Source of the DNA: Fibrobacterota bacterium
Lineage (GTDB): Bacteria > Fibrobacterota > Fibrobacteria > UBA11236
Assembly (NCBI GenBank): GCA_028287505.1
Contig: JAQBPN010000021.1
Span: forward strand, 1-64,000
Reading direction: 5' to 3'
Length of the DNA: 64,000 nt
Numbering within the stretch: the stretch's first letter is position 1; every line of letters begins with the position of its first letter. This document shows positions 12,264 to 42,525 of the stretch, in pieces. The notes beneath the pieces are model-generated. The model made no database searches. It saw nothing but the letters and a program-made list of their open reading frames with translations, and was not told the DNA's origin. The position numbers and the translations under genes were made by a program.

Positions 12264-12270
12264 GACCCCA

Positions 12271-12281
12271 TTTTTGTAATC
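12271..12281 (+). promoter_or_regulatory. TTTTTGTAATC motif upstream of DUF4423 regulator operon
   Basis: TTTTTGTAATC at 12271-12281, in an AT-rich 175-bp gap. The same core occurs twice upstream of the paralogous lipoprotein gene at 41152 (40958-40967 and 41044-41054). It is a candidate operator shared by the two loci. Confidence 0.35.
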
Positions 12282-12338
12282 GAATATTTGAACAGTAATT
12301 CCAAAAATCTCTATTTTATCCCTTCAAATTGGGATTAT

Positions 12339-12354
12339 TTACCTAAAAAGGTAA
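12339..12354. promoter_or_regulatory. TTACCT-N4-AGGTAA inverted repeat (candidate operator)
   Basis: Perfect 6-bp arms TTACCT (12339-12344) and AGGTAA (12349-12354) separated by AAAA, just upstream of the predicted -35 of the DUF4423 regulator gene. Position and symmetry suit an autoregulatory site for a helix-turn-helix protein. Confidence 0.35.
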
Positions 12355-12372
12355 TCTTTTCCTAAAAACTAC

Positions 12373-12401
12373 TTTCCAAAATGGCCGGTGTTGGATATAC
12401 T
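12373..12401 (+). promoter_or_regulatory. promoter for DUF4423 regulator-lipoprotein operon
   Basis: TTTCCA (12373-12378), a 17-bp spacer, then TATACT (12396-12401). The predicted start is near 12408, with an AGAGGA ribosome site before the ATG at 12440. Confidence 0.55.
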
Positions 12402-12439
12402 CTTTCCAAGGGGCGGGAAACCGATCCCAGAGGAATGCC

Positions 12440-13279
12440 ATGGACGTTTACCAATACGAGGATTTCCGCAAGTTCCTGGAAGACGCCTTCGAGGAAAAGC
12501 GGAAGGACCCTTCCGTCCCGGCCAAGGGCAAGTATACCCACCGCAAACTGGCGGGCGAAGCCGGCTTCACCAACCCGGGATATTTCAACGATGTGGTGAA
12601 GGGCCGGCGCACGCTCAGCGACTCCGCCGCGGGCAAGCTCGTCACCGTCTTCGCCCTGAAACCGAATGAAGCGGAATACTTCCGCCTGCTGGTTTCCTAT
12701 GGGCAAAGCAAAGATCCCGAGGAGCGCCAACAGATCTACGAACAGATGCTCTTCCGCCGCAACCGCTCGTCCTTCGTGCGGCTCAATCCCGTCAACAGCA
12801 AATATTACCAGGACTACCATTACCCCCTGGTGCGCTCCGCCATCCAGGTCCTGGACTTCCGCGGCAATTACGAAGAGCTGGCCAAGTTCATCCGACCCTC
12901 GGTACCCGTGGCCACCCTGAAGAAATGCGTGCGCGATCTTTGCGAATGGGGCCTGCTGACCCAGAATGCGGAAGGGCGATACCAGCCCGCGTTCAAGAAC
13001 CAGGAGCCCGCGCCCTCCATGGGGGATCTGGTCAAACGCCTCAACCGCGAATGGGTGATGCAGGCGGCCGATGCCCTCTTCGCCTTTCCGAAAGAGGAGC
13101 GCTACATCTACTCCGCCCTGCTCACCGTGGGCGCCAAGACGTTCAAGGAAATCCAGGGGCGGATAGACAGATTCCGGGAAGAAATAATCGAACTGGCCAA
13201 GCGGGAGGAAAAACCCGATCGCGTCATGCAGTTCAACATCCAGCATTTCCCCCGCAGCAATGTGAAGGAGCCGAAGTGA
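12440..13279 (+). CDS. TIGR02147 / DUF4423-type HTH regulator
   Basis: A 279-aa protein of the TIGR02147 family, a paralogous family first noted in Fibrobacter succinogenes that carries the DUF4423 domain. The start DVYQYEDFRKFLEDAF (residues 2-17) is the family signature (x-Y-x-D/E-Y/F-R-x-F/Y-L). Residues ~33-75 (HRKLAGEAGFTNPGYFNDVV, then KGRRTLSDSAAGKL) look like an XRE-type helix-turn-helix. The C-terminal part (YYQDYHYPLVRSAIQVLDF onwards) is the DUF4423 region. No signal peptide or membrane helix, so it is a cytoplasmic DNA-binding regulator by inference. Its stop overlaps the ATG of the next lipoprotein gene by one base, so the two are coupled. A second pair with the same order lies at 33894-35587. 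Confidence 0.85.
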   Translation: MDVYQYEDFRKFLEDAFEEKRKDPSVPAKGKYTHRKLAGEAGFTNPGYFNDVVKGRRTLSDSAAGKLVTVFALKPNEAEYFRLLVSYGQSKDPEERQQIYEQMLFRRNRSSFVRLNPVNSKYYQDYHYPLVRSAIQVLDFRGNYEELAKFIRPSVPVATLKKCVRDLCEWGLLTQNAEGRYQPAFKNQEPAPSMGDLVKRLNREWVMQAADALFAFPKEERYIYSALLTVGAKTFKEIQGRIDRFREEIIELAKREEKPDRVMQFNIQHFPRSNVKEPK

Positions 13280-14694
13280 TGCGCGCAAATGGAACGGGTT
13301 CCATCAATCCCATCGGCTCCCGGCGGATCCCGGGCCATGCCCGGGCCGCCATTTTCGCGCTGGCCGCGCTTTCCGCGCTTTCCGGCTGCATGACCGAAGA
13401 CAAGAAAACCGCCGGCGTAGACGAGTTCCCCAACAGCATCTATGCCCGCGTGAACACGTTCCTGGACGAAGGCAAGAAATCCGAAGACATCGATCCCGTT
13501 CCGTCCCTGACGGACGACGTGCTGGGCCAGCCCGGCTTCAACGTGGGCGCAGGCAAGGTGGCCGGAGCCAAGATCGCCGCGGCCGCCAAGCAAGGAGCGG
13601 AATCCGCGATCCTGGGCGGCCTGGCCAAGGCCGCCGCCGATACCGGCTGCAAAACCGGGGTCTGGACCATCACCGATTCGGTGGGCGCGCCTCTGAAATA
13701 CACCATCAACACCCTCTCGGTCTGCGTGGATGCCAAGGCCTTGGATACCATCAAGAACAACGAGACCGTCCTGCATGGCAGGAGCGTGACCACCTATAAC
13801 AGCGGGCGCGTGGAGACCGCGGACTTTTCCGATGCGGACGGCGACGGAATCCTGAATCCGACCGGCACCGCGTCCAAAGCGAACATCGTATTCACCGCCA
13901 CGGAGAACGGCGTGTCGGAAGTGACCAGGCTGGTGATCGGCCCCGGTCCGGACGCCAATTTCAACACCGAGGCCGACAATCTCGTCTACACCGCCGTTTG
14001 GAGCAAAACCTCCGGGACGGACACCTTGGGGACCGCCACCTACGCGGACGCGGATAGCGACGGAGTGGCCGTGGACAATGGCAAGGCCTCGGTGGTGGAT
14101 CTCGATCTCTACCAAAAGGGCCCTTCCGAGGATCACCCCGACGCGGTATGGTCCCGGGCGCAGATGCGCCTGGTGGTTCGCTACCATGTGGAGGCCAAGG
14201 AAGCCAGGCGCGTGCGCTTCGAGATGGAAGACAAGGCCGGCCGGCGGACAATCGGCGAAATCCTGGGCCGCGAGGGCGGGAAGGATTTCGACATGGCCGA
14301 TACCGTCCAAGCGCATTTCCTTTCCATCGGCACCGCGGCCTCGGATACCCTGGACTCCATGGACGTCCATCTCGCCATGGGATTGGGCAAGGACTTCGAC
14401 AGCAAATTGGACGACAGCGTATACGCCATGGATGTCCGCACCCTCAAGAAGCTTGGCGAGGAAAAGAGCGCCCATTTCTCCTTCCAGTCGGACAGGCCCA
14501 TCCCTTCCGGCAAAGATCCGGTGAGCGGCGTCCTTTCCATGGAAGTGGATTATGCCGACGGCACCTCCATCGCCGTGGATGGCAGGATCAGCGCGGAGGC
14601 CATGGACGTGACCATCCAGGATCGGACCGGCAAGCGCATGCACGTGGTGTGGGACCGGGATGGGCGCGGGCTCAGCCTTGAGAACCTGAACTGA
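13279..14694 (+). CDS. lipoprotein with DxDxDG calcium-like loops, coupled to DUF4423 regulator
   Basis: A 471-aa lipoprotein of unknown function. The true start is ATG 13279 (TGATG overlap with the regulator stop; GAAGGAG ribosome site at 13264). The signal peptide ends in lipobox LSALSGC, with Cys at about residue 37. Two EF-hand/dockerin-like acidic loops are visible, DADGDGILN near residue 186 and DADSDGVAVDNG near 258, flanking a GPGPDANFNTEADN segment. It is a clear paralogue of the protein at 41152-42525: same order of ADFSDADGDG, G(A/P)GPDANF, YxDADxDGV and a C-terminal half with PSGKDPVSG. Probably anchored in the outer membrane or periplasm. Operon with the regulator suggests its synthesis is controlled by that protein. 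Confidence 0.7.
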   Translation: MRANGTGSINPIGSRRIPGHARAAIFALAALSALSGCMTEDKKTAGVDEFPNSIYARVNTFLDEGKKSEDIDPVPSLTDDVLGQPGFNVGAGKVAGAKIAAAAKQGAESAILGGLAKAAADTGCKTGVWTITDSVGAPLKYTINTLSVCVDAKALDTIKNNETVLHGRSVTTYNSGRVETADFSDADGDGILNPTGTASKANIVFTATENGVSEVTRLVIGPGPDANFNTEADNLVYTAVWSKTSGTDTLGTATYADADSDGVAVDNGKASVVDLDLYQKGPSEDHPDAVWSRAQMRLVVRYHVEAKEARRVRFEMEDKAGRRTIGEILGREGGKDFDMADTVQAHFLSIGTAASDTLDSMDVHLAMGLGKDFDSKLDDSVYAMDVRTLKKLGEEKSAHFSFQSDRPIPSGKDPVSGVLSMEVDYADGTSIAVDGRISAEAMDVTIQDRTGKRMHVVWDRDGRGLSLENLN

Positions 14695-17268: not shown

Positions 17269-17330
17269 TAGGGGTGGCGTTCCCCGTGCCGCCTTTTCCG
17301 TCGATTATCCGCATTTTCGAGGTAGCGAAC

Positions 17331-20300
17331 ATGAAGATCTTCCAAGAGTCCAACCTGCGTTCCATGCATCGCGCATTCCCGGCGCTGGCCGCGGCCTTTC
17401 TGCTCGCCGGATTGAACGGCATGCCGGCTTCGGCGGCGGCGAAGGCCAAGCCCCCGCAAGCGGCGGCCGCGGACGGATCCCGGGACAAGGACTTCCAGGC
17501 CACGGTGGACAAAATCCTGAAGGGAAGCGTGTCGGGAATCGATACCGCCGGGTTCCTGATGGAATTGGAAAACCGCATCGCGCGGAAACCGGGCCAGGAC
17601 AGCTGGCAGGAAGCCGCCGGCACCTTGCATTTCCAGGTCGGCCGTTTCGATCAGGCCCGCCGGGCCCTGCTCAAGCTGAAGAAGCCCTCCGCCCAGGCCG
17701 ATCGCATGCTGGCCCTGAGCCTTTTCGAGCTGAAGGAATACCGCAAATCCCTGGCGTATTTCAACCGCATGCGCGACGCGCGCTCCAGCCGGGAAGACTG
17801 GGAGAAGCTGTGCATCGCCATGTCCGCCGGGGGAACCCGGGCCGACGCCCTGAAGGAATGGGAGGCCTTCCGCGCGCATTTTTCCGGGACGGACGCGGGG
17901 CTGGAGTACCTGGCCGACTACTACCGCAGGCCCATGCAGAAGGAAAAACTGGTTCCCGTGCTGGAAGCCCTGTTGAAGAAGACCAAAGGCGCCCCCGGTG
18001 CCCCGGGCACGGCCGATGAAGGGGCCATCCTGCTGGAGTTGAGCGGGTTGTACGGCGAGACCAACGTCAAATCGGTGGACCTGCGCACCCAGTATCTCAA
18101 ACTGCATCCCGAGGATTTCACGGCGGCGCGCGGTCTGGCCGCCATGCTGGAAGCCCGTGGGGAGATCAAGAAGGCCCTGCCCATCTACATGGACATCGCC
18201 CCCCACTTCTCGTCGGACCTGAAGTACAACCGCCACCTGGCGGACATGCTGGCCAAGCTGGACCGGGAAAAGGCCCTGCTCTACTACGAAACCTGCCGCA
18301 CCCTGTCCCCGAAGGACGTGGAGATTCCGTTGGCCATGGCCCGTTTGCAGGAGGAGCTGAAACGCCCCGACCTGGCCCTGGAAGCCTACAAGGCGGTGCT
18401 GGACATCAACCCCACCCATCAGGACGCCAAGAACCGCCTGGTGGCCCTGGCGGGAAGCCGTCCCGAACCCGGCCCTTGGCTCAAGACCATGGTGGAGAAC
18501 GAAAAGAAGAACCCCCGCGATCACGCCTTCCAGTTCCAATTGGCGAAAATGTTCCTGGCCGCCAAGGATCGGGACAACGCCTACAAGTATCTGCAGAAGG
18601 CCCTGCAGAACTCCTCCGACAAGGAAGAGTACACGGACCTGCTTCCCCTGGTTGCCACCTCGGATGCGCAGATCCTCAAGCACTTCGCCCTGCTCCAGAA
18701 AATGGCCCAGCGTCCCGCGCCCACGGCGCAATTGCTGATCCTGTTGGGACGGGGCTTCTCGCTCTACAGGAACCAGGCGCGCGCCGCCGAGGCCTATGCC
18801 CGCGTGCTGCGGATGGAACCCAAGCTCCTGGAAGGCCATCGCCAGCCCATCCTCGATCTGTACGGCGTAAAGGACTACGCGGCCGCGGCCGCATTGTCGG
18901 AACGGTTCCTGGCCGCCAATCCCAAGGACGCGGACATCCTGGGCATCAACGTCTCCTCGCTTTCCGAAACCGGCGCGCCTCCCGCCAAATTGCGCGCGGC
19001 CATCCAGAACCTGGTGGCGGCGGAGCCTTACGACGACAAGTGGTATTACCGGCTGGCGGAATTGGACCTGGCGGCCAGGGACACGGCCGGCGCCATCCAG
19101 CATGGGCGCGAATGGACCAAGATGCATCCGGAGGACAAGCGGGGATTGCTGTTCGTGGAACCCCTGGCGGCCAAGGCCAAGGACGGCGAGCTGTATGCCA
19201 ACACCATGGACAACCTCTCCCGGCTGGATCCCTCCAACCAGAGCGCCTACGATCTGAAGATGGGGTATTTCTTTTTTGAGAACGGACAATGGTCCCAGGC
19301 CGCCGAAGCCCTGACCAAGCTGTCCGCCGCTTTTCCCAACGATGCGAAATTCTGGAACCGCCTGGGCGTGAGCCAGGTCAAGCTCGGCCGCGACGGCGCC
19401 GAACTGGCTCTTGAAAAAGCCTACCGCTTGCAACCGGACAATCCCGGCTACGCCCGCGGCTATGCCGCCTGCCTGGCCTCGGATGCGGAACTCAAAGCCA
19501 ACCTGGATCTGTTCCGCATGCTTGGGCGCAACTCCCCCGACAAAGGCGAGAAGCACAAGCTCGCCCGCGCCCTGTACCTGAGCGGCGACTACGGCGCCGC
19601 GGCGCGCGAATGGGATTGGTTCCTGGCGAACGATCCCAACGCCGTGGCCACGGATTCCACCGCCGGGCTTTCCTTTCTGCGGGCGGGCCAGGTCAACAAG
19701 GCCAAGCCCATCCTGGAAAAGCGCCTGGCCTCCAATCCCCGCGACGTGGGACTGCTGGCCACCTTGTCCGAAGTGTACGCCAAGGAAGGGGACGGCAAGC
19801 GCAAGATGGGCATGATGGAACGCCTGGTGCAGGAAGACCAGACCGTGGGCGATTACCTGCTGCGTCTGGCCAGGGACAAGGACAAGGCCGGCCAGCCCGC
19901 GGAAGCCCTGGCGCTGTATTCGCAATGGACCTTCCGCCATCCGGACGATGCCGCCGCGCTGAAATCCTACCGGGACCTGGCGGAGAAGCAGAAGGACACC
20001 ACCGCCCTTATCGAAGCGCTCCGGTACCTGACCCAGGTCAAGTCTCCCGAACGCGCCTACCGTTTCCAATTGTCGGAACTGTATTTCGCCCGCAGCGGCG
20101 AGACCAAGGAGTTGGAAGAACTGGTGAAGGCGAATCCGGACTATCGCCAAGGCAAGCTGCTGCTGGTCTGGGAATACCATGCCAAGCGTTCCTGGCAGGC
20201 ATTGGCCGGCCTGGAACCTTTCCTGGCCGCGGAGGCCGCTTCCAACGCCGCCCTGCTGGAACCCCTGGCGGATCTCTACGCCTGGCAGAAGAAGACCGCG

Positions 20301-23300
20301 CAGGCCCACCAGGCCTATTACAATTGGCTGGCGGTCAAACGCAAGGATAGGGACGTGTTCGACAAGGTGTACGCCTACGCCAGCGAATTCAAATCGCCCA
20401 ACCTCACTTCCATCCTGAAACTGGGCTGCGAATCCTTCCCGCAGGATCTCTCCCTGATGGCCGATTATGCCGGATCCCTGGGAACCACCCGGTCCGCCCT
20501 GGATGCCTATCAGGCCTTGCTCGTCAAAGCCCCCAACGACCAGACGGCCATCGAAAAGGCCGCGGAGGTGGCGCGCGCCCTGGGCGACAAAGGCGCCCAG
20601 GCGAAGTGGGCCAAACGGTGGACGGAAATCAAGCCGATGGACGAAAAGCCCTGGCACATCCTGATCGAATCCCTGGACCCCGGAGCGGACAAGGCCAAAC
20701 TCGCCGACGCCCAGGAAGGACTGCTCCGCCTGCAGACCGGGAACCTGGAACTGATCCTGAGCCTGGCCCGATTGCAGGAAACCCTGGGCCGCTACGACAA
20801 GGCCATCGGCCTGTACCGCAACGCCCTCTATCTGGCCCCCAAGGACAAATCCATCCGCGACCGGTTGATTGTGTTGATGAAGGAGAAGGGCAAGAAGGAA
20901 GACCTGGCGGACGTGTTGACGGAAATCCAGAACATCGACTCCAGCGCCCACGAAGCGCAATACGAACTGGCCAAGCTGTTCCTGCAGAAGCAGGACAAGA
21001 CCAAGGCCTACGCCTACCTGAGCACGGCCTTGGAATTGAGCCCGCTCAACCAGAACTACCAGCGTTTGCTGCCGCACGCCATCCAGGGCCCGCAACAGAC
21101 CCTGAAGCATTTCAAATTGTTGAAGGAGATAGCGGCCCGCCCGGAAACCTCGCGATCGGACGCGAACAATGCGGACCTGTTCCTGTTGCTGGGACAGGGC
21201 TACGGCCTGCAAGGGCAATGGGAACCCGCCGCGGCCCACCTGGCCATGGCCTACCGCCTGGCGCCCAAGCGCCTGCTGGGGGATCGCGAAGCCGTGATGG
21301 CCTGCTACCGCGGCAAGAACTACGCCTTGACCGCGGAACTGGCGGAAAAGTTCTTCGAGACGACGGGCGATTTCGACAAGGAGATCCGCCAGGTGCAGAT
21401 CCTCTCCTATGAAAAGACCATGAAGGATCCGGCCGTCATCCGCAAGACCTTGCAGTTGCTGCTGGCGGTGGACAAGGAGAATGCCGGCGGCCTGTTGCGC
21501 CTGGCGGAACTGGACCTGCGCGTCAAGGATACTTCGGCGGCCATCACCAACATCCGCGCCTGCCTCACCACCAGCCCCAACGAATTGCGCGCCTTCAAGA
21601 TGCTGCTGCCTCTGGTCAGCCCCGCCAAACAGGATCAGCGCGTGACCTACGTGGTGGTGCTGGAAAAGCTGGCCCAGCTGGATTCGGCGAACAAGGCCGA
21701 CCATCTTATCCGCTTGGCGGATTTCTACTTCGGACGCAAGACCTACCGCCAGACCGCGCGCCTGTTGAGCGAAGTCACCGAGCTGCGCCCCAAGGACGCG
21801 GAGTCCTGGTACCGCCTGGGCCAGTGCCGGAACCAATTGCAGGTGGGCGATCAGGGAGTGGCCTGCTTCCGCAAGGCATTCGAATTGCAGCCGTCCAACC
21901 TGCCCTATGCGCACACCTACGCGCAGGCCCTGGAGACCCCGGAGGAGTTCAAGGCCAACCTGAAACTGTACCAGTTCGCGGAAGATCGCAATCCCAGCCT
22001 GCATGAGCGCTTCGGCCTGGCCATGGCCCTTTTCTACAATGGCGACAACCAGGGTTCCGCCAAGGCCTGGGACAAGCTCGCGGCCGCCAACAAATCCGCT
22101 GCGAAAGACGAGGAATCCAAGTGGATCCCGGAAGCGGCCCTCGCCTATGCGCGCACCAACCAATACGCCAAGGCCCTGGTCCTGTACCGCCTGCGCCAGG
22201 AGCGCGAAGCCGCCAATCTCGGCCTGCTCGACACCCTCTGCAACCTGTTCGCCAAGACCGGAGACGAAAACGGCCGCGTCGCGACTTTGGAATCCCTGGT
22301 GCGCGTGGACGCGGCCTATAAGGATTATCAGCTGCAGTTGGCGCGCGCCAAGGAGAAATCCCGCGATACCGTGGCCGCCATCGAGAACTACGGCCAATGG
22401 ACCGCGCGCAACAACACCGATGCCGACGCCCTCAAGTCCATGCATCGCCTGGCCCAAGGCAAGCGCGATACCGCCAGCCTGGAGAACGCCCTGCGCATGC
22501 TCACCGCCATCAAGGGGCAGGATCCGGAATACTCCTTCCAGCTCGCCGAACTGCAATTCAAGTACACGGGCGATCCGGCCCAGTTGGAAAAACTGGTCAA
22601 GGCCCATCCCCAGTACCATCGCGGCCGCGTGATCCTGGCCAAGGAGTACTTCCGGCGTTACGATATGCCGCGCATGATCCCCTTCGAAAAGGCCCTGGCC
22701 GAGGAATCCGCCAAGGACCGCGAACTGCTGGGCGCATTGGCCGAACTGTACGCCTACCAGGACAAGAAGACTCCGGCCCACAAAGCCTTCCGGGACAACC
22801 TGGTCTACCGCCAGGAAACGGCGCAGGCGGGGAAAAGTCCCGCGGCCCAGGCGGACCTCCGCCAAGCGTTCGACAAAGCCTGGCTTTACGGGGACGCGAA
22901 CAAATCGCCGTACCTGGCCGAAGTGCTCGACATAGGCAACCGGAACTTTCCCGGGGAACCGCCCATCCAACACGCCCTGGCCTCGGCCTTGGGCAAGGAT
23001 CCGCGCGCCCTGGATCTGTACAGGCAAATCCTGGAAAAGGATGCCAACGATCTGACCGCCCTGCGGGCCGGTTCGGAACTGGCCATGGGCCTGGGAAAGA
23101 CCAGGGATGCGGTAACCTGGCTGGAACGGTGGACCGCGTTGGAAGCCACTTCCACCCGCGCCTGGCAACTGCTCGGGGACGCGTATCTCCAGGTCAAGGA
23201 CCTGCCCAAAGTGGCCGACGCGCTCGATCACCAGATGCTCCTCTCTCCCACCGATGCCGCCCTGGCCTTCCGCACCGGCCAGGCCTACCTGGACGCGAAG

Positions 23301-25358
23301 AACAAAGAGAAGGCCCTGGAGTTCCTGATCCGGGCCGACGAATTGAAGCCCAAGGATCCCACCTATGCCGGGGAAGTGATGGAACTGCTCCGCTCGGGCT
23401 CGGAAGAATACCTGGCCAAGGGCGAGATCGCCAAGGCGGTGGAACTGTACGGCATGATGCTGGCCCGCGATCCAAAACAGAAGAAGGCGAACCTGTACAT
23501 GGGCATGTGGCTGGCCGAGAATCGCGATTACGGTTCCGCCGGATCCATGCTCAAGATCGGCCTGGAACAATCTTCGGAAGCCAAACCGGTGCTGGCCAAG
23601 GCCTGGAGGCTGTTGGGCGATTGCCAGGCCGCTTCCGGCCAGAGCAAGCCCGCCCTGGAAGCCTATAAACGCGCCCTGGGGTTCGACGACAAGGACAAGG
23701 CCGCCGCGCTGGCCCGCCTGGAAATGACCGGCGTCCTGAACCTGCAGGCGGAACTGCCCGCCGCCCTGGCCGACGTGGTCCGCCTGGATTCCGCCAACGT
23801 GGAAGCCTGCCTGGCCCTGGGCGCGCTGCGCCTCAAAGCCAGCGATTTCCCCGCCGCCGCCGCCCTGTACCGCCGCGCCGCCCTGGCCCACGACAACGAT
23901 GCCGACGCCTGGGCGCGTTACGGCGACGCGCTGGAAGGCAGCGCGGGTCGGGGCGACCCGTCACGCAATCGGGAAGCCATGCAGGCATGGGACAAAGCCT
24001 ATGCCCTGGGCGACCGCAACGCCTATACCTTGCAGGGCCTGTCCCGCCTGCATCGCGAAGCCGGCAGCCTGGACAAGGCGGAAGCCCCCTTGGAAGATCT
24101 GGTGGCCATGCAGCCGGAAAACGACGAAGCCTGCGCCTGGCTGGGCGAGCTTGCGTTGAAACAAGGCAAGCTCGAAAAAGCGGAGGAAATGTACGCGCAG
24201 GCTTCCCAGGGAGCGCCGGAAAAACTCGAGTACACTCAGGGCCTCGCGGAAATCTACCTGCGCCGCGGCGATGCCGAATCCGCCCTGGAAATCCTGGAAC
24301 CGGCCAAAGCGCGTCTGAGTCCGGAGGGCCGTCTGACCCTCGCGGACGCGTTGCGCGCGGTGGGCAAAACCGAAGCGGCCTTGCCGTTGTATGCGGATGT
24401 GAACCTGAAAGCGCCTTCCGCCCGCTCCGTGGCCGGTCTGGCCGAGGCCCAGCTCGACCGCAGCAAGCCCTTGGACGCGAAGAAGCAGATCGAAAGCTCC
24501 GCCTTCGCCAAGGACCCGGAAGTGCAATTGCGCCTGGGCAAGGCTTTGCTCGCGCTCCGCGAACGCGATAAGGCCGCCGGGGTCCTGGAGGCGTTGGTGA
24601 AGCAGGACAAGGAGAATCCCGCCTACGTGTACAACCTTGCCCTGGTCCATTACGATCAGAAGAACCTGCCGCTGGCGCTCAAGGAGTTCAAGCAGGCCTT
24701 GCGGTTGCGCGCGGACCTGGCGGGCGCGGCCTACTACTCCGGCATGATCGATTTGGCCTCGGGACAGATCAACGAAGCCAAGGGCTTCTTCTTTTCCCTG
24801 GCCCAGAATTCGGCCAAACCGGACCGGGCCATGGGTCTGCGCGGTCTGGCGGCGGCCAGCCTGGCTGAAAAGAAACTGGCCGAGGCTTCCGATTACCTGG
24901 TGCAGGCCTCCGAGGTCTTCCCCACTCCGGAAGTGTTCGCGGAACTGTCCGAGACCAGCCTGTTGATCGGCAGCCCCAAGGACGCCGAGAACTGGGCCCA
25001 GAAGAGCATGGAAGCCGACGAGGACTACGCGCGCGGCATCGTCGCCCTGGCGGAAGCCATGATGGCCCAAGGCCGCAAGGATGAGGCGCGGGATTTCCTG
25101 AAGGAATCCCTGACGCGGAATCCCCGAGCCTGCGAGGTCCATATCGAATCGCAGAAGGTGAACCTGGCCCTGGAAAACGTGCAGGGCATCGCCTCCAACA
25201 GCCGCCAGGTCCTGACCCTTTGCCCCGACGAGCCCCTGTCCTATTTCTACGCGGGAGTGGCGGCGGACCGTTCCTATCAGAAGAAACAGGCCGAAGAGTA
25301 CTTCAAATACTACAAGAAGCTGGGGGGCGACAAGAGCGTGCTGCCCAAAGGGTATTAA
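17331..25358 (+). CDS. giant exported TPR-repeat protein (2,675 aa) with internal duplication
   Basis: An 8-kb gene encoding an exported protein built almost entirely of tetratricopeptide repeats. ATG 17331 has GAGGT upstream and gives a signal peptide (about 1-37: FPALAAAFLLAG core, end near PASAAA). The frame is open 57 bp further upstream without a good start. TPR signatures such as ALEAYKAVLDINPTHQDA, AEAYARVLRMEPK, YNLALVHYDQKNLPLALKEF and AAYYSGMIDLASGQ recur throughout. A segment encoded about 18340-20690 is matched in order by 20760-23190, offset about 2.4-2.5 kb, so roughly 800 residues were duplicated. The C-terminus ends AEEYFKYYKKLGGDKSVLPKGY. No enzyme domain is seen; a periplasmic scaffold is the likely role. 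TTA, CTA and TCA codons are absent over most of it. Confidence 0.85.
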   Translation: MKIFQESNLRSMHRAFPALAAAFLLAGLNGMPASAAAKAKPPQAAAADGSRDKDFQATVDKILKGSVSGIDTAGFLMELENRIARKPGQDSWQEAAGTLHFQVGRFDQARRALLKLKKPSAQADRMLALSLFELKEYRKSLAYFNRMRDARSSREDWEKLCIAMSAGGTRADALKEWEAFRAHFSGTDAGLEYLADYYRRPMQKEKLVPVLEALLKKTKGAPGAPGTADEGAILLELSGLYGETNVKSVDLRTQYLKLHPEDFTAARGLAAMLEARGEIKKALPIYMDIAPHFSSDLKYNRHLADMLAKLDREKALLYYETCRTLSPKDVEIPLAMARLQEELKRPDLALEAYKAVLDINPTHQDAKNRLVALAGSRPEPGPWLKTMVENEKKNPRDHAFQFQLAKMFLAAKDRDNAYKYLQKALQNSSDKEEYTDLLPLVATSDAQILKHFALLQKMAQRPAPTAQLLILLGRGFSLYRNQARAAEAYARVLRMEPKLLEGHRQPILDLYGVKDYAAAAALSERFLAANPKDADILGINVSSLSETGAPPAKLRAAIQNLVAAEPYDDKWYYRLAELDLAARDTAGAIQHGREWTKMHPEDKRGLLFVEPLAAKAKDGELYANTMDNLSRLDPSNQSAYDLKMGYFFFENGQWSQAAEALTKLSAAFPNDAKFWNRLGVSQVKLGRDGAELALEKAYRLQPDNPGYARGYAACLASDAELKANLDLFRMLGRNSPDKGEKHKLARALYLSGDYGAAAREWDWFLANDPNAVATDSTAGLSFLRAGQVNKAKPILEKRLASNPRDVGLLATLSEVYAKEGDGKRKMGMMERLVQEDQTVGDYLLRLARDKDKAGQPAEALALYSQWTFRHPDDAAALKSYRDLAEKQKDTTALIEALRYLTQVKSPERAYRFQLSELYFARSGETKELEELVKANPDYRQGKLLLVWEYHAKRSWQALAGLEPFLAAEAASNAALLEPLADLYAWQKKTAQAHQAYYNWLAVKRKDRDVFDKVYAYASEFKSPNLTSILKLGCESFPQDLSLMADYAGSLGTTRSALDAYQALLVKAPNDQTAIEKAAEVARALGDKGAQAKWAKRWTEIKPMDEKPWHILIESLDPGADKAKLADAQEGLLRLQTGNLELILSLARLQETLGRYDKAIGLYRNALYLAPKDKSIRDRLIVLMKEKGKKEDLADVLTEIQNIDSSAHEAQYELAKLFLQKQDKTKAYAYLSTALELSPLNQNYQRLLPHAIQGPQQTLKHFKLLKEIAARPETSRSDANNADLFLLLGQGYGLQGQWEPAAAHLAMAYRLAPKRLLGDREAVMACYRGKNYALTAELAEKFFETTGDFDKEIRQVQILSYEKTMKDPAVIRKTLQLLLAVDKENAGGLLRLAELDLRVKDTSAAITNIRACLTTSPNELRAFKMLLPLVSPAKQDQRVTYVVVLEKLAQLDSANKADHLIRLADFYFGRKTYRQTARLLSEVTELRPKDAESWYRLGQCRNQLQVGDQGVACFRKAFELQPSNLPYAHTYAQALETPEEFKANLKLYQFAEDRNPSLHERFGLAMALFYNGDNQGSAKAWDKLAAANKSAAKDEESKWIPEAALAYARTNQYAKALVLYRLRQEREAANLGLLDTLCNLFAKTGDENGRVATLESLVRVDAAYKDYQLQLARAKEKSRDTVAAIENYGQWTARNNTDADALKSMHRLAQGKRDTASLENALRMLTAIKGQDPEYSFQLAELQFKYTGDPAQLEKLVKAHPQYHRGRVILAKEYFRRYDMPRMIPFEKALAEESAKDRELLGALAELYAYQDKKTPAHKAFRDNLVYRQETAQAGKSPAAQADLRQAFDKAWLYGDANKSPYLAEVLDIGNRNFPGEPPIQHALASALGKDPRALDLYRQILEKDANDLTALRAGSELAMGLGKTRDAVTWLERWTALEATSTRAWQLLGDAYLQVKDLPKVADALDHQMLLSPTDAALAFRTGQAYLDAKNKEKALEFLIRADELKPKDPTYAGEVMELLRSGSEEYLAKGEIAKAVELYGMMLARDPKQKKANLYMGMWLAENRDYGSAGSMLKIGLEQSSEAKPVLAKAWRLLGDCQAASGQSKPALEAYKRALGFDDKDKAAALARLEMTGVLNLQAELPAALADVVRLDSANVEACLALGALRLKASDFPAAAALYRRAALAHDNDADAWARYGDALEGSAGRGDPSRNREAMQAWDKAYALGDRNAYTLQGLSRLHREAGSLDKAEAPLEDLVAMQPENDEACAWLGELALKQGKLEKAEEMYAQASQGAPEKLEYTQGLAEIYLRRGDAESALEILEPAKARLSPEGRLTLADALRAVGKTEAALPLYADVNLKAPSARSVAGLAEAQLDRSKPLDAKKQIESSAFAKDPEVQLRLGKALLALRERDKAAGVLEALVKQDKENPAYVYNLALVHYDQKNLPLALKEFKQALRLRADLAGAAYYSGMIDLASGQINEAKGFFFSLAQNSAKPDRAMGLRGLAAASLAEKKLAEASDYLVQASEVFPTPEVFAELSETSLLIGSPKDAENWAQKSMEADEDYARGIVALAEAMMAQGRKDEARDFLKESLTRNPRACEVHIESQKVNLALENVQGIASNSRQVLTLCPDEPLSYFYAGVAADRSYQKKQAEEYFKYYKKLGGDKSVLPKGY

Positions 25359-32415: not shown

Positions 32416-32892
32416 ATGAAAAACCCGGTCACCAAGCGGGAAAGCCGCCGCAACCAACTCCCCTCCCGGACCCGCGACCTCTTCGCGGGATTGAAGGAAA
32501 CCCTCGCGGGAAAGCGGAAGGGAGGCCTGCCGTCCGGCTGGGCGCCCGGAGGCGACCTGCTGACGGAAAATTGGCCGTCCCTGGAGATTTCCGAGAATGA
32601 CAAGGAAGTGCAGGTCAAACTCGAGGCGCCAGGACTGACGGAAAAGGATTTGGATTTGAATTACTTGGACGGCACCTTGATCATCAAGGGCGAGAAAAAA
32701 GAAGAACACGAGGATCGCAAGCGCAACGTCTACTACCGGGAAAGCCGCTACGGATCTTTTTCCCGCAGCATTCCCATCGGCACGGGCGTGGATTTTTCCA
32801 AGGCCAAAGCGGAATACCGCAACGGCGTGCTCAAAGTGGAGATCCCGAAAATCGCCGACGAAACCCAGCGCAGGCAAATCCCCATCACCTGA
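32416..32892 (+). CDS. small heat shock protein Hsp20 (first of three)
   Basis: A 158-aa alpha-crystallin-domain chaperone that holds unfolding proteins. ATG 32416 with AAAGGAGA upstream is chosen; the frame is open earlier without a site. The N-terminal arm (1-45) is basic. The alpha-crystallin domain spans about 50-150 with VKLEAPGLTEKDLDL, GTLIIKGEKKEE, the YGSFSRSIPIGTGVD strand and the A-x-x-x-NGVL-VEIPK end. The C-terminal IPIT acts as the I-x-I-like anchoring motif. It is the first gene of a three-gene Hsp20 run spaced 16 and 41 bp. No CIRCE element or inverted repeat is seen upstream. Confidence 0.92.
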   Translation: MKNPVTKRESRRNQLPSRTRDLFAGLKETLAGKRKGGLPSGWAPGGDLLTENWPSLEISENDKEVQVKLEAPGLTEKDLDLNYLDGTLIIKGEKKEEHEDRKRNVYYRESRYGSFSRSIPIGTGVDFSKAKAEYRNGVLKVEIPKIADETQRRQIPIT

Positions 32893-32908
32893 AGGAAAGG
32901 AGACCGCT

Positions 32909-33343
32909 ATGGCCCTCTCGGATTGGACTTTCACGCCAGGCACGGGCTTCGAACGCGAGTTCGATCGCTTGCGCAGGCAAATGGACGACGTTTTCGGACG
33001 GATCAGTTTGGGCGCCGGAGCGGGATTTCCGGCCATGAATATTTACGACCAGGGAGACGAAGTGCTGGTGGCCGTGCAGGCCCCCGGAGTGAAAAAGGAG
33101 GATTTGCACGTGGAGCTGCGGGAGAACACGTTTACCGTATCCGGCATCCGCAAGGCCCCCGAATACTCCGACGCCACCGTATTGCGCGAGGAAACCGATT
33201 ACGGCGAGTTCAAGCGCTCCATGCGCATCGCGACCAAGGTGCAGCACGACAAGATCGAAGCCAATCTCAAGAACGGCATCCTCCTGGTCAGGATGCCCAA
33301 ATCCGAAGAAGCGAAGCCCAAGCACATCGCAATCAACGCATGA
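32909..33343 (+). CDS. small heat shock protein Hsp20 (second of three)
   Basis: A 144-aa Hsp20 with the common short N-terminal arm (FEREFDRLRRQMDDVFGRI). The alpha-crystallin domain follows: PAMNIYDQGDEVLVAVQAPG, KKEDLHVEL, then YGEFKRSMRIATKVQ and the LKNGILLVRMPK strand; the C-terminal IAIN acts as the I-x-I/V anchor. It has a strong AGGAAAGGAG ribosome site. Sequence differs clearly from its neighbours, so the three genes are old paralogues that may form mixed oligomers. Confidence 0.93.
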   Translation: MALSDWTFTPGTGFEREFDRLRRQMDDVFGRISLGAGAGFPAMNIYDQGDEVLVAVQAPGVKKEDLHVELRENTFTVSGIRKAPEYSDATVLREETDYGEFKRSMRIATKVQHDKIEANLKNGILLVRMPKSEEAKPKHIAINA

Positions 33344-33384
33344 AGGCGCCGGTTCCATCGGGACGGACCGGAGGAGGAAAGAAC

Positions 33385-33801
33385 ATGGCAACTGAAGTCG
33401 AAAAAGAATCGCGGCGCGGACGGGATGCGTCCAAGAAGGAAGCGGCTGGCACTCCCGAGAACCTGATCGGGTTGGAAAACGCCTATCTGCCCGACGCGGC
33501 CATCTACGAAACCGAGGACAACCTTTTCATAAGGCTGGATATCCCGGGCGTGGAAAAAGGCCAGGTGCAGATAGAAGTGGACGAGACCAATACCCTGCAG
33601 ATGCGGGCCAAGAACGGCTTCGAAGAACCGTCCGGCATCGTGTTCCGGGAATTCGTGGTCGGGGACTATTACCGGTCGTTCCGGTTGGGCGAAGAGTTCG
33701 ACAAGGACGGCATCATGGCGAAGCTCGAGGACGGGGTCCTGGAGTTGACCGTGGCAAAAAAGGAAGAAGTCAAACCGAAGCGGATCTCCATCAACGCCTG
33801 A
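33385..33801 (+). CDS. small heat shock protein Hsp20 (third of three)
   Basis: A 138-aa Hsp20. ATG 33385 has a GAGGAGGAAAG ribosome site; the upstream open frame is a shadow of the previous gene. The charged N-terminal arm (EKESRRGRDASKKEAAG) lacks the amphipathic helix of the second gene. The domain shows LFIRLDIPGVEKGQVQIEV, YYRSFRLGEEFDKDGIMAK and LEDGVLELTVAKKEE, ending in the ISIN anchor. Last gene of the cluster, before a shared terminator. Confidence 0.92.
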   Translation: MATEVEKESRRGRDASKKEAAGTPENLIGLENAYLPDAAIYETEDNLFIRLDIPGVEKGQVQIEVDETNTLQMRAKNGFEEPSGIVFREFVVGDYYRSFRLGEEFDKDGIMAKLEDGVLELTVAKKEEVKPKRISINA

Positions 33802-33893: not shown

Positions 33894-34685
33894 CTAGCGG
33901 TCAGGGATGAAGACGATCGTATTCCAGGCCTTGGCGGAATAGGCGGTATCGGACGTGTTCAGGGAATCCGAGGACTCGAAGAGCAAAGACGAATCCTTGT
34001 CGGCCCCGATGATGCCGTAAGTCCCTTCGGACATCCGCGCCATGGTGAAGGAGGAGTCCTTACCGATGGACGCATGGTACGGACTTCCCGGGATGAAGAC
34101 ATAGTCGATCCCCAGGCTGATTCCATAAATGCCCATCCGGCCCGAGAATCCCTTGACCGCTTTGGGCAGGTTGAAGGCGCTCTTGAATCGGCCATACGCG
34201 CTTTGGGCCGAACCCTCCGTCTTCGCGAATCCCACCACGTCTCCCGAGCGACGGTAGCTGAACCCGCCCACGAAGGCTTCCCGATCGTCGGCCTTGGCCA
34301 CCACGTTGAAATGCAGGGTGGTGTCCTTGAGCGCGGTGGTATCCTTGCCCTGGTCGGCCAGGATGCGGTGCAGGGCGGAATCCATCTCCTCGGGAGTGAA
34401 TTCCACGTAGGTCCCGCCCGTGAACTCCTTGGTCAGGATGGGCGTGCTGTCCTGCACCGGGTTCATGCTCTTTCCATACAGGCTTACGCGTCCCGCCGCG
34501 GCGGAACCGTCCGTGGGACTGAAGTTCAATTCCATCTTCGGGTTTTCCACCCCATCGCTGCCGCCCAGGCATCCGGTGAGCGTGAAAATCGCCACGATAC
34601 TCGACAATGCATATGGAAACGATCCGAATCGCAACATACGATGGCCCAAGGCCTTCCTCGCTTCCCCCATAATCCCGTTATCCAT
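33894..34685 (-). CDS. lipoprotein coupled to DUF4423 regulator (second pair)
   Basis: A 263-aa lipoprotein of unknown function. The lipobox FTLTGC puts Cys at residue 39 from ATG 34685; in-frame ATGs at residues 6 and 17 would give a shorter signal peptide. ATG 34685 lies 2 bp after the stop of the DUF4423 regulator, so translation is coupled. The mature region is beta-rich with no recognised domain (AGRVSLYGKS, GGTYVEFTPEEMD, AFVGGFSYRRSGDVVGFAK, FVDYVFIPGSP-like segments). It is not obviously related in sequence to the lipoproteins at 13279 and 41152, so the pair conserves architecture rather than partner sequence. It ends at a strong terminator. Confidence 0.65.
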   Translation of the reverse strand: MDNGIMGEARKALGHRMLRFGSFPYALSSIVAIFTLTGCLGGSDGVENPKMELNFSPTDGSAAAGRVSLYGKSMNPVQDSTPILTKEFTGGTYVEFTPEEMDSALHRILADQGKDTTALKDTTLHFNVVAKADDREAFVGGFSYRRSGDVVGFAKTEGSAQSAYGRFKSAFNLPKAVKGFSGRMGIYGISLGIDYVFIPGSPYHASIGKDSSFTMARMSEGTYGIIGADKDSSLLFESSDSLNTSDTAYSAKAWNTIVFIPDR

Positions 34686-34687
34686 GT

Positions 34688-35587
34688 CTAGCCGGCCGCC
34701 TGCGGTGCACTCGGTTTCCTGGATTCTTTTTCCGGGCTCTCCTCCAGCTCGGGAATCACGACGTTCGGAAAGAAATGCATGGTCAGGGTATAGACCCTGT
34801 CCTCGCGACGGTCCTTCTCCACCATCTCGCGCAGCTCCTCCCGGAAGGATTGGATCCGGTCCTTGATGGACTGGAAGCCTTCCCTGGAAATGTATACCGT
34901 CAGGGCATTATATTCACGCCATTCCGCCGGAACCTGATCGAAAGTCTCCATGGCCAGGCGCGTCATTTCGTACATGCGGTTCTTGCCCGCAAGATCGAGG
35001 ATTTCGCGCTCGGTGGCGATATGGTTCTCCGTCACCGCGTAGCCGTTGGCCAGGCGTTTGATGAGTTTGAGATCCAGGAGGATGCGGATGGCTTCTTCGA
35101 TTTCCTTGGGCGAGACCGGCGGGAAAATCTTGCGGGCGATGGCCTGGGGGTTCTTCTCTTTCTGGTTGTAGCCGAAGAAGGCGCGCACCACCGAGAAGTA
35201 CCACTTGGAATAGTATTGATACTCGTCGCTCTTGATGATCTTGGCGCGGGATCCGCGGTACTTGGCGAGCTCGGAAAAGAAATGGTTCTTGGCCTCCATG
35301 CGGGTGGCCTGGTTGAACTGCACCAGCAAATCGAAGTAGCGGAACTCCTCGCCGATCAGGCCCAGGGCTTTGCCGAATTTGAAACGGAGATCCAGGGTGA
35401 GATTGCGCTTGCCCGCGATGACTTTGGAAAGCAGGCTGGCATTGGAAACGGGCAGGCCGGCCTTGGCGGCGAAATGCCGATTGGAGAATAAGGGATTCTC
35501 CTCCTTGGCCCGGCGGCAATACTCCGCCAGGTAGGCCCGGTAGTCCAGGTAGTCGAAAATGGAAAAAGGCGTTTCGGCGTCACTCAT
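34688..35587 (-). CDS. TIGR02147 / DUF4423-type HTH regulator (second)
   Basis: A 299-aa paralogue of the protein at 12440. The family start IFDYLDYRAYLAEYCRRAKE is clear (residues 8-27). The helix-turn-helix-like region is about residues 34-75 (NRHFAAKAGLPVSNASLLSK, then VIAGKRNLT) and the DUF4423 part contains QYYSKWYFSVVRAFF near 145. An AGGAAA ribosome site precedes ATG 35587. The next gene, a lipoprotein, starts 2 bp after its stop. Direct repeats TTTACAGG lie about 27-58 bp upstream of the start and may be its own operator. Cytoplasmic; DNA-binding role inferred from the fold and from the family. Confidence 0.85.
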   Translation of the reverse strand: MSDAETPFSIFDYLDYRAYLAEYCRRAKEENPLFSNRHFAAKAGLPVSNASLLSKVIAGKRNLTLDLRFKFGKALGLIGEEFRYFDLLVQFNQATRMEAKNHFFSELAKYRGSRAKIIKSDEYQYYSKWYFSVVRAFFGYNQKEKNPQAIARKIFPPVSPKEIEEAIRILLDLKLIKRLANGYAVTENHIATEREILDLAGKNRMYEMTRLAMETFDQVPAEWREYNALTVYISREGFQSIKDRIQSFREELREMVEKDRREDRVYTLTMHFFPNVVIPELEESPEKESRKPSAPQAAG

Positions 35588-35613: not shown

Positions 35614-35645
35614 TTTACAGGTATACTTAAGCCCCCTTTTACAGG
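35614..35645. promoter_or_regulatory. TTTACAGG direct repeats upstream of the second DUF4423 regulator
   Basis: TTTACAGG at 35614-35621 and 35638-35645, 24 bp start to start, flanking a TATACC-like -10 on the minus strand. GCCCC/GGGGC arms also bracket the second copy. Candidate operator for autoregulation. Confidence 0.3.
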
Positions 35646-35855
35646 GGCAAAACGGCCCCGAGGTGCCGATTGGCGCGCCAAGGTGAGGTTTTTGAGGCGC
35701 CCCCGGTCCGCTTTTGGGAAAAAACGCCGGTCCCCGGTCCCGACAGGCGGAAGGGCAGGCTTCCAGGGATAGGCTTTTCCAGGAGGGGTCATGGGCGAGG
35801 AAACCATGTCAATGGCGATTGTACCACGGACGAAGGCTACAAGGTAGATATCCGG

Positions 35856-41151: not shown

Positions 41152-42525
41152 ATGCATCCCTCCCTCGCTCGCAAAACCACCTGGGCGGCCCTGATGGGCG
41201 CCGCCCTTTTCCTGGGCGCCTGTGTCACCTCCAATGAAGAATCCACCGTGATCGACCCGCTGTTCGCGGACGCCAAGATCGACGCCCGCACCGCGGGACA
41301 GTCCCTTTCCGGCAGCTTCGAGCAAAGCAAGGATTGGAATTCCACCGTCACCGCTCCCACCGGTCTGCAGGCCCTGGGCGGCGTGTCCACCAACGTGGGC
41401 GCCTTGAAGAAGAGCACCGCCTTGCCGAAAATGTCCGGCGACACGGATCTGGGCGGCGCTTTGCACGCCAACCTCGACGATACGGCCAAGGGTTACGCCA
41501 CCGTGTACGCCGAATACGAGTTGCTGCTGGTGAACGTCAAGGACACCGCCGTCGTCAAGTGGGATGACAAGGCCAAGGATACCATCAAGGACAACGAGAA
41601 CATCATCTCCTTCAAGCGCGTCTCCACTTCCCTGGGCGGGCTCAAGGTGGAAACCGCCGAATTCACGGACGGCGACGGCGACGGGATCGTCACCGCGGCT
41701 CCGGGCAAGGACAACAAAGTCCATCTGGTGATGACGGTCAAGGAGTCCGGATCCACGGAGAAGACCTCGCTGCTGGTGGGCGCCGGTCCCGACGCCAACT
41801 TCGACAAGGAAGAGGACAATACCATCCTGGAAGCCACCTGGATCAAGACGAACAAGGACGGGATGGTCACCGGCACCGGCGCCTATCTGGACGCGGACGG
41901 CGACGGGGTCATCACCGACAATTCCAAGACCTGCATCGTGCTGGCGAAATACTCCGAGTTCGAGCCGTTGCTCCGCCCCTTCATCAAGAAGGTGGACTTC
42001 GAAGCCAAGGTGCGCGTGTTCGCCAACAAGGCCGGGGACGAACCCGTAAGCTTCTCCTACCAGGAAACCACCAAGTTCGGCCGCGTCAATTCGGTCACCA
42101 TCAAGAACCGCGAAGGCGGCACGGAGATCGTGAAGGGCGACACCATGACGGTGCACATGGAAACCACCGTGTCCACCGCGGCCGATACCTTGAAGCACGC
42201 CACCATCGATTTCGTGATGAACATGGGCCAGGACCTCAAGAGCGATACCGATGACGTGTGCTACGCCATCCACATCGCCACCCAGAAAAGGTTCGGCCTG
42301 GAACGCGAAGCGGAATTCCACTTCATTTCGGACGAAGGCATCCCCCACGGCCAGGAACCGGTCGCGGGCAGCTTCTACGGCTCGGCCAAGTACGCCAACG
42401 GCCAGACCGCCAGCCTCAAGGGTTCCTTCTCGCCCACGGGCTTCTCGGCCGAATTCACCGGTCCGGAAGGCAATAAAGTCACGGTGGAATACACCAAGAG
42501 CGGAGACCTGGTCGGCAACCCCTGA
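41152..42525 (+). CDS. lipoprotein, paralogue of the regulator-coupled lipoprotein at 13279
   Basis: A 457-aa lipoprotein. ATG 41152 with AAAGGA upstream is chosen over an in-frame start 63 bp earlier that lies ahead of the predicted transcript. The signal peptide ends in lipobox LGAC (Cys near residue 24). It shares with the 13279 protein two DxDxDG loops (DGDGDGIVTAAPG near 182; DADGDGVITDN near 265), the GAGPDANFDKEEDN segment and the C-terminal part. Unlike its paralogue it has no DUF4423 regulator next to it; it is a single-gene unit with its own promoter and terminator. Shared upstream TTTTGTAATC motifs suggest control in trans by a regulator of that family. Function unknown; Ca2+ binding is inferred. 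Confidence 0.7.
   Translation: MHPSLARKTTWAALMGAALFLGACVTSNEESTVIDPLFADAKIDARTAGQSLSGSFEQSKDWNSTVTAPTGLQALGGVSTNVGALKKSTALPKMSGDTDLGGALHANLDDTAKGYATVYAEYELLLVNVKDTAVVKWDDKAKDTIKDNENIISFKRVSTSLGGLKVETAEFTDGDGDGIVTAAPGKDNKVHLVMTVKESGSTEKTSLLVGAGPDANFDKEEDNTILEATWIKTNKDGMVTGTGAYLDADGDGVITDNSKTCIVLAKYSEFEPLLRPFIKKVDFEAKVRVFANKAGDEPVSFSYQETTKFGRVNSVTIKNREGGTEIVKGDTMTVHMETTVSTAADTLKHATIDFVMNMGQDLKSDTDDVCYAIHIATQKRFGLEREAEFHFISDEGIPHGQEPVAGSFYGSAKYANGQTASLKGSFSPTGFSAEFTGPEGNKVTVEYTKSGDLVGNP

Follow-up and report, generated by a model that had tools for sequence, protein, structure and literature searches.

The regulator-lipoprotein gene pair at 12440-14694, in the following called cassette 1, is one copy of an expanded cassette that occurs throughout the phylum Fibrobacterota, with about 50 pairs in this genome. 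The minus strand of the window, i.e., the whole stretch of 64,000 nt that was analyzed, carries a second copy (cassette 2; Table 1). A cassette would consist, in this order, of a promoter with its own palindromic operator, a gene for a TIGR02147 regulator and a translationally coupled gene for a tagged lipoprotein. We suggest that the regulator, probably a dimer with a helix-turn-helix (HTH) and a winged helix, recognizes the palindrome in its own promoter, near -62, and that the bound regulator activates its operon, repression being less likely; a single lipoprotein of the surface or envelope would then be switched independently of the others. We consider this account, from the phylum-wide cassette to the self-activating regulator that switches its own lipoprotein, likely as a whole. 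We infer that the cognate regulator binds and activates, that the lipoprotein is exposed at the surface and that there is an input signal.

Table 1 Features of the two cassettes in the window.
Feature	Position	Strand	Basis or remark
Cassette 1 candidate operator TTTACCTaaaaAGGTAATC, palindrome core 12339-12354	12338-12356	+	Direct sequence, ortholog comparison
Cassette 1 putative -10 element TATACT	12396-12401	+	Kept in orthologous upstream regions; distance rule
Regulator 1 (TIGR02147/DUF4423), 279 aa	12440-13279	+	NCBIfam and Pfam matches, AlphaFold model
Lipoprotein 1, 471 aa	13279-14694	+	Lipobox LSGC at Cys37
Lipoprotein 1 signal peptide	13279-13386	+	
Lipoprotein 1 Cys37, predicted to be acylated	13387-13389	+	Lipobox
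Lipoprotein 1 post-Cys tag AGVDEFPN, residues 45-52	13411-13434	+	
Lipoprotein 2, 263 aa, ATG at 34685	33894-34685	-	Lipobox LTGC, Cys39
Lipoprotein 2 post-Cys tag variant GGSDGVENP	34539-34565	-	GVENP block also in L127 and L128
Regulator 2 (TIGR02147/DUF4423), 299 aa	34688-35587	-	220.9 bits vs TIGR02147 (cut-off 50)
Conserved palindrome GCCCCTGTAAAAGGGGG upstream of regulator 2	35632-35648	-	Kept in three orthologs amid diverged sequence

We collected all TIGR02147 copies of this genome together with loci from 11 further genomes and used a hexamer model of our own for gene calling, the gene starts being predictions. Across these 12 Fibrobacterota genomes, a gene with a lipobox started -25 to +20 bp after the TIGR02147 gene in 236 of 276 cases (86%), and in 44 of 52 in this genome. 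As a control, which was drawn from the TIGR02147 loci themselves and not from the whole genome, other same-strand neighbor pairs had a close lipoprotein (-15 to +20 bp) in 10 of 253 cases. The sequence-only reading had proposed such a tabulation of neighbors against chance, and the opposite of a mostly unpaired family was found. With a strict lipobox rule, which was also the one applied to the control pairs, a lipoprotein was next to 40 of the 51 TIGR02147 genes that have a same-strand downstream gene, and eight more were recognized by eye. The commonest form of coupling was the -4 ATGA overlap (132 of 241 coupled starts). Both architectures described earlier for the window were confirmed: the one-base TGATG overlap of cassette 1, in which the last base of the regulator stop codon TGA (13277-13279) is the first base of the lipoprotein ATG, and the similar arrangement at 33894-35587 with a 2-bp gap, which is kept together with the lipobox in the orthologous loci L127 and L128. 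Every cassette seen has its own promoter region.

There are exceptions to the pairing. About four to eight TIGR02147 genes of this genome lack a close lipoprotein, and in one further group the lipoprotein lies 176 bp away. The orthologous group L049/L235/L284 is conserved without a coupled lipoprotein; in these loci a strongly conserved stretch follows the TIGR02147 gene (MRYLPNKIKTRCGRLG in one frame). One genome (G012) holds two TIGR02147 genes (C38:1865-2671 and C13:58507-59304), neither paired with a lipoprotein, a state that is possibly ancestral or degenerate. A third TIGR02147 gene of the present contig is located just outside the window (G000:C51:67265-68071; L039:4980-5819), and an open frame about 300 bp downstream of it resembles a secreted DUF2341-type protein and not a coupled lipoprotein.

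The two partners also evolve together. The N-termini of regulators and lipoproteins co-vary across paralogues (Mantel rho 0.525, null sd 0.08), and orthologous regulators are 86% identical compared with 61% for the lipoproteins, the lipoprotein being lower in 63 of 63 pairs. From this we conclude that cassettes duplicate as units while the lipoprotein diverges faster. Overall, the TIGR02147-lipoprotein pairing is strongly supported.

By the curated score cut-offs, regulators 1 and 2 belong to the TIGR02147 (Fsuc_second)/PF14394 DUF4423 paralogous family, with 204.2 bits for regulator 1 against TIGR02147 (cut-off 50) and 65.5 bits against PF14394 (cut-off 30); the orthologs of regulator 2 in two sister genomes are 94-97% identical. 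In this genome (6.07 Mb in 130 contigs) there are 56 matches to TIGR02147, 55 of them above the cut-off, and all 51 members examined from it matched DUF4423. Complete counts for three sister genomes gave 53, 34 and 85. The family was present in 91 of 101 sampled Fibrobacterota genomes, with no match in 14 control genomes or in phage records; one 21%-identical relative was found in a Bdellovibrio plasmid, where the next gene is convergent and there is no coupled lipoprotein. In our literature search, TIGR02147 was nowhere mentioned and DUF4423 appeared in a table of one paper. What is new here for the family is the partner, its tag, a candidate operator and a modelled fold.

In the AlphaFold model of regulator 1 (pLDDT 92.7), the N-terminal helices are arranged as an HTH (about residues 9-70) and are followed by a winged helix at residues 127-183 (helix-helix-helix-strand-strand) and two long C-terminal helices. 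The HTH-like N-terminus proposed in the sequence-only reading reappears, with a winged helix added, in the predicted structure; just a few TIGR02147 members match HTH_3 in Pfam. Foldseek returned weak matches to winged helices of the MarR/HxlR type (best E 0.013, TM <= 0.51). With no Pfam MarR match and no significant global fold match, regulator 1 was not assigned to the MarR family; its DUF4423 part has a weak structural likeness to MarR/SlyA/HxlR regulators, from which it differs by the extra N-terminal HTH. Given the modelled fold, DNA binding by TIGR02147 proteins is well motivated.

The paired lipoproteins share little except their N-terminal region. The lipobox Cys is invariant in 48 paired lipoproteins, which classifies them by sequence as predicted bacterial lipoproteins. 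The signal peptides differ, and the common element is a short tag that follows the acylated Cys and reads roughly C-x(4-12)-AGG..[ED]xxN, with AGGGTETGN, AGGSETTN and AGVDEFPN as examples. When this genome was left out of the training, a tag profile scored 40 of the genome's 44 paired lipoproteins above all 35 unpaired ones. Beyond the N-terminus the proteins are mutually unlike; in this genome 31 of 48 carry a carboxypeptidase-regulatory domain (Pfam), further recurring modules are LamG, DUF2341, CBM6/35, LRR and Kelch, and some have no known domain. One LRR lipoprotein matched Xop effectors in NCBIfam, which we took as generic repeat matches and not as homology. In a Fibrobacter-like genome (G019), 9 of the 32 lipoproteins coupled to TIGR02147 carry the FISUMP domain (TIGR02145/PF09603, the Fibrobacter succinogenes major paralogous domain), whereas those of the present genome carry carboxypeptidase-regulatory, LamG, DUF2341, CBM, LRR or no known domains instead. 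Proteomics of F. succinogenes, irrespective of TIGR02147 cassettes, found that, of 49 lipoproteins quantified, 40 decrease on cellulose, among them several that have carboxypeptidase-regulatory domains (PMC6851124), and that one FISUMP protein is detected only on cellulose (PMC4619616). By analogy, these data would fit conditional expression of such lipoproteins.

Lipoprotein 1 has neither a Pfam domain nor an NCBIfam family in profile searches, and the FISUMP domain was absent from lipoproteins 1 and 2 (NCBIfam). Its Cys37 is invariant in alignments A2 and A3, and G46, P51 and N52 of its tag are invariant across 13 relatives. The predicted structure is all-beta at low confidence (pLDDT 68); on this model an OspA-like fold reached E 3e-3 and is not claimed. 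The only NCBIfam match of lipoprotein 2, to CcrC, was below the cut-off (E 0.07). Elsewhere in the window, three consecutive HSP20 small heat-shock genes (32416-33801) directly adjoin cassette 2, a very large open frame at 17274-25358 (2694 aa) has TPR-like repeats by eye, and a 457-aa lipoprotein at 41152-42525 has no Pfam family and no post-Cys tag and is not beside a TIGR02147 gene.

Looking at the upstream regions, we found no k-mer shared by all 52 cassettes, because the candidate operators differ between cassettes. A plain count of palindromes showed no excess in cassette upstream regions over other intergenic regions (p = 0.14), and we turned to ortholog footprinting and spacing tests instead. 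Many diverged orthologous promoters of sister genomes keep a palindrome together with the -10 hexamer, for example CTGCTCTCTAATTGAGAGC, GTTTACAAAAGTAAAC and GTATCCTTANGGAATAC. Among these ortholog groups, all from one genus, palindromes were conserved more often than mirror repeats used as control (10 vs 1 groups at >=6/8, p = 2e-4). When 19 candidate operators were searched at one mismatch against 576 kb, including every cassette promoter fetched, most matched their own cassette only. In many cassettes a candidate operator is not evident, cassette 2 included, where no -10 could be assigned to the conserved palindrome by ortholog comparison. A search of the window against Rfam gave no match. 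Being located upstream of the -10 element, the palindromes should not be transcribed, and this speaks against an RNA element.

In cassette 1, the candidate operator is the sole perfect match in the 6.07-Mb genome, with two-mismatch matches at control level. Its right half, GTAATC, is kept in four orthologs, and a hand count gave 39 bp between this half and TATACT in all five sequences; its left half is weakly conserved. A second copy of GTAATC (usually TTTGTAATC) is seen farther upstream in most of the five relatives (12264-12440 and the L116-L119 upstream regions); the site may thus be a pair of direct repeats.

The distance to the -10 element appears to be fixed. A first spacing test without footprinting gave a weak peak. 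In 12 of 23 footprinted ortholog groups the palindrome center lies 47.5-51.5 bp upstream of the -10 element, and in cassette 1 it lies at 49.5 bp. Several of the spacing and motif rules were developed on the same data, and a blind test independent of orthologs took in more clusters than the discovery set. With 105 weighted regulator clusters, it yielded 36.9 at 49-53 bp compared with 12.0 +/- 3.1 for jittered -10 positions, and 25.6 matches in the 50-52 bp bin compared with about 5 in typical 2-bp bins; mirror repeats were flat and non-TIGR02147 promoters had no comparable peak. There was no clear spacing peak in an AT-rich Fibrobacter-like genome. Additional operator positions one to two helical turns upstream (~60 and 72 bp) were seen in a few footprinted groups and were dropped, with 12.3 against a null of 12.1 in the blind test.

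Assuming the usual TSS, the operators would be centered near -62, upstream of the -35 region. At lac, CRP activates by the class I mechanism from a site centered at -61.5 (PMC6301791). The candidate operators have about the same position relative to the -10 element; the TIGR02147 regulator differs in not being a CRP homologue and in that operator and target are specific to each paralogue. Aligned orthologous promoters generally show no well-conserved -35 hexamer. Because of the upstream position, the fixed spacing and this lack of a conserved -35, activation is favored, and the regulator probably acts as an activator, although the operator position alone does not prove it. Autoregulation of each cassette is supported by the promoter comparisons. 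The earlier proposal that each regulator controls its own lipoprotein gains from the cassette-specific palindromes at a fixed promoter distance and from the co-evolution of both partners, which are consistent with such control. The suggestion of envelope sensing is left without an evident route back to the regulator, since the cassettes examined showed no component for signalling across the membrane.

The same conservation and spacing of the palindromes would also serve a regulator that represses its own operon, with relief by a ligand or at low abundance, and with coupling merely setting the ratio of regulator to lipoprotein. Autorepression is common among HTH regulators, but an operator center ~50 bp upstream of the -10 element is outside the -35/-10 region, and the poorly conserved -35 is what would be expected of activator-dependent promoters, so we regard negative autoregulation as unlikely.

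Considerably less probable is that the regulator senses a peptide from its own lipoprotein, such as the cleaved signal peptide. In Enterococcus, lipoprotein signal peptides give rise to pheromones whose targets are HTH regulators in the cytoplasm, and in RRNPP systems (Rgg, PlcR, PrgX) an HTH regulator gene is likewise found beside the gene for an exported product. The obligate pairing and co-evolution tie both products together, and no other part of the cassette could feed a signal back. However, neither the regulator 1 model nor family searches revealed the TPR peptide-binding domain of RRNPP proteins; the regulator has a winged helix instead, it is coupled to a large lipoprotein, and what these lipoproteins have in common is the conserved tag and not the signal peptide. 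Least probable of all, by a narrow step, is that other transcription factors bind the palindromes while TIGR02147 proteins regulate elsewhere or post-transcriptionally: cognate binding is a prediction and residue-by-residue covariation with the operator, confounded by phylogeny, does not single out the HTH, but since the palindromes number in the dozens, differ from one another, share one spacing and are each nearly unique to a cassette, an equally large set of otherwise unseen factors would be required. In addition, similar operators tend to go with similar regulators (rho about 0.2).

If the preferred reading of self-activation holds, an activator driving its own gene forms a positive loop and could therefore be bistable. 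More speculatively, and with low confidence on our side, each cassette might be an insulated self-activating loop, and ~35-85 such loops per genome with private operators might let single cells of a clone display different sets of tagged surface lipoproteins with no change in DNA, an epigenetic surface diversity across the phylum.

With these results, a large paralogous family without described function gains a partner, a candidate target, a candidate DNA site and a modelled structure. TIGR02145 and TIGR02147, which received their names independently of each other (the major and the second Fibrobacter paralogous family), are partners in some cassettes, and the common tag points to a shared handling of the lipoproteins, for instance in export or anchoring. 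The family belongs to cellulose-degrading bacteria and their relatives, for which it now provides a testable system of cell-surface control, and its dozens of paralogous regulators with candidate private operators would be well suited to studies on the divergence of DNA-binding specificity.
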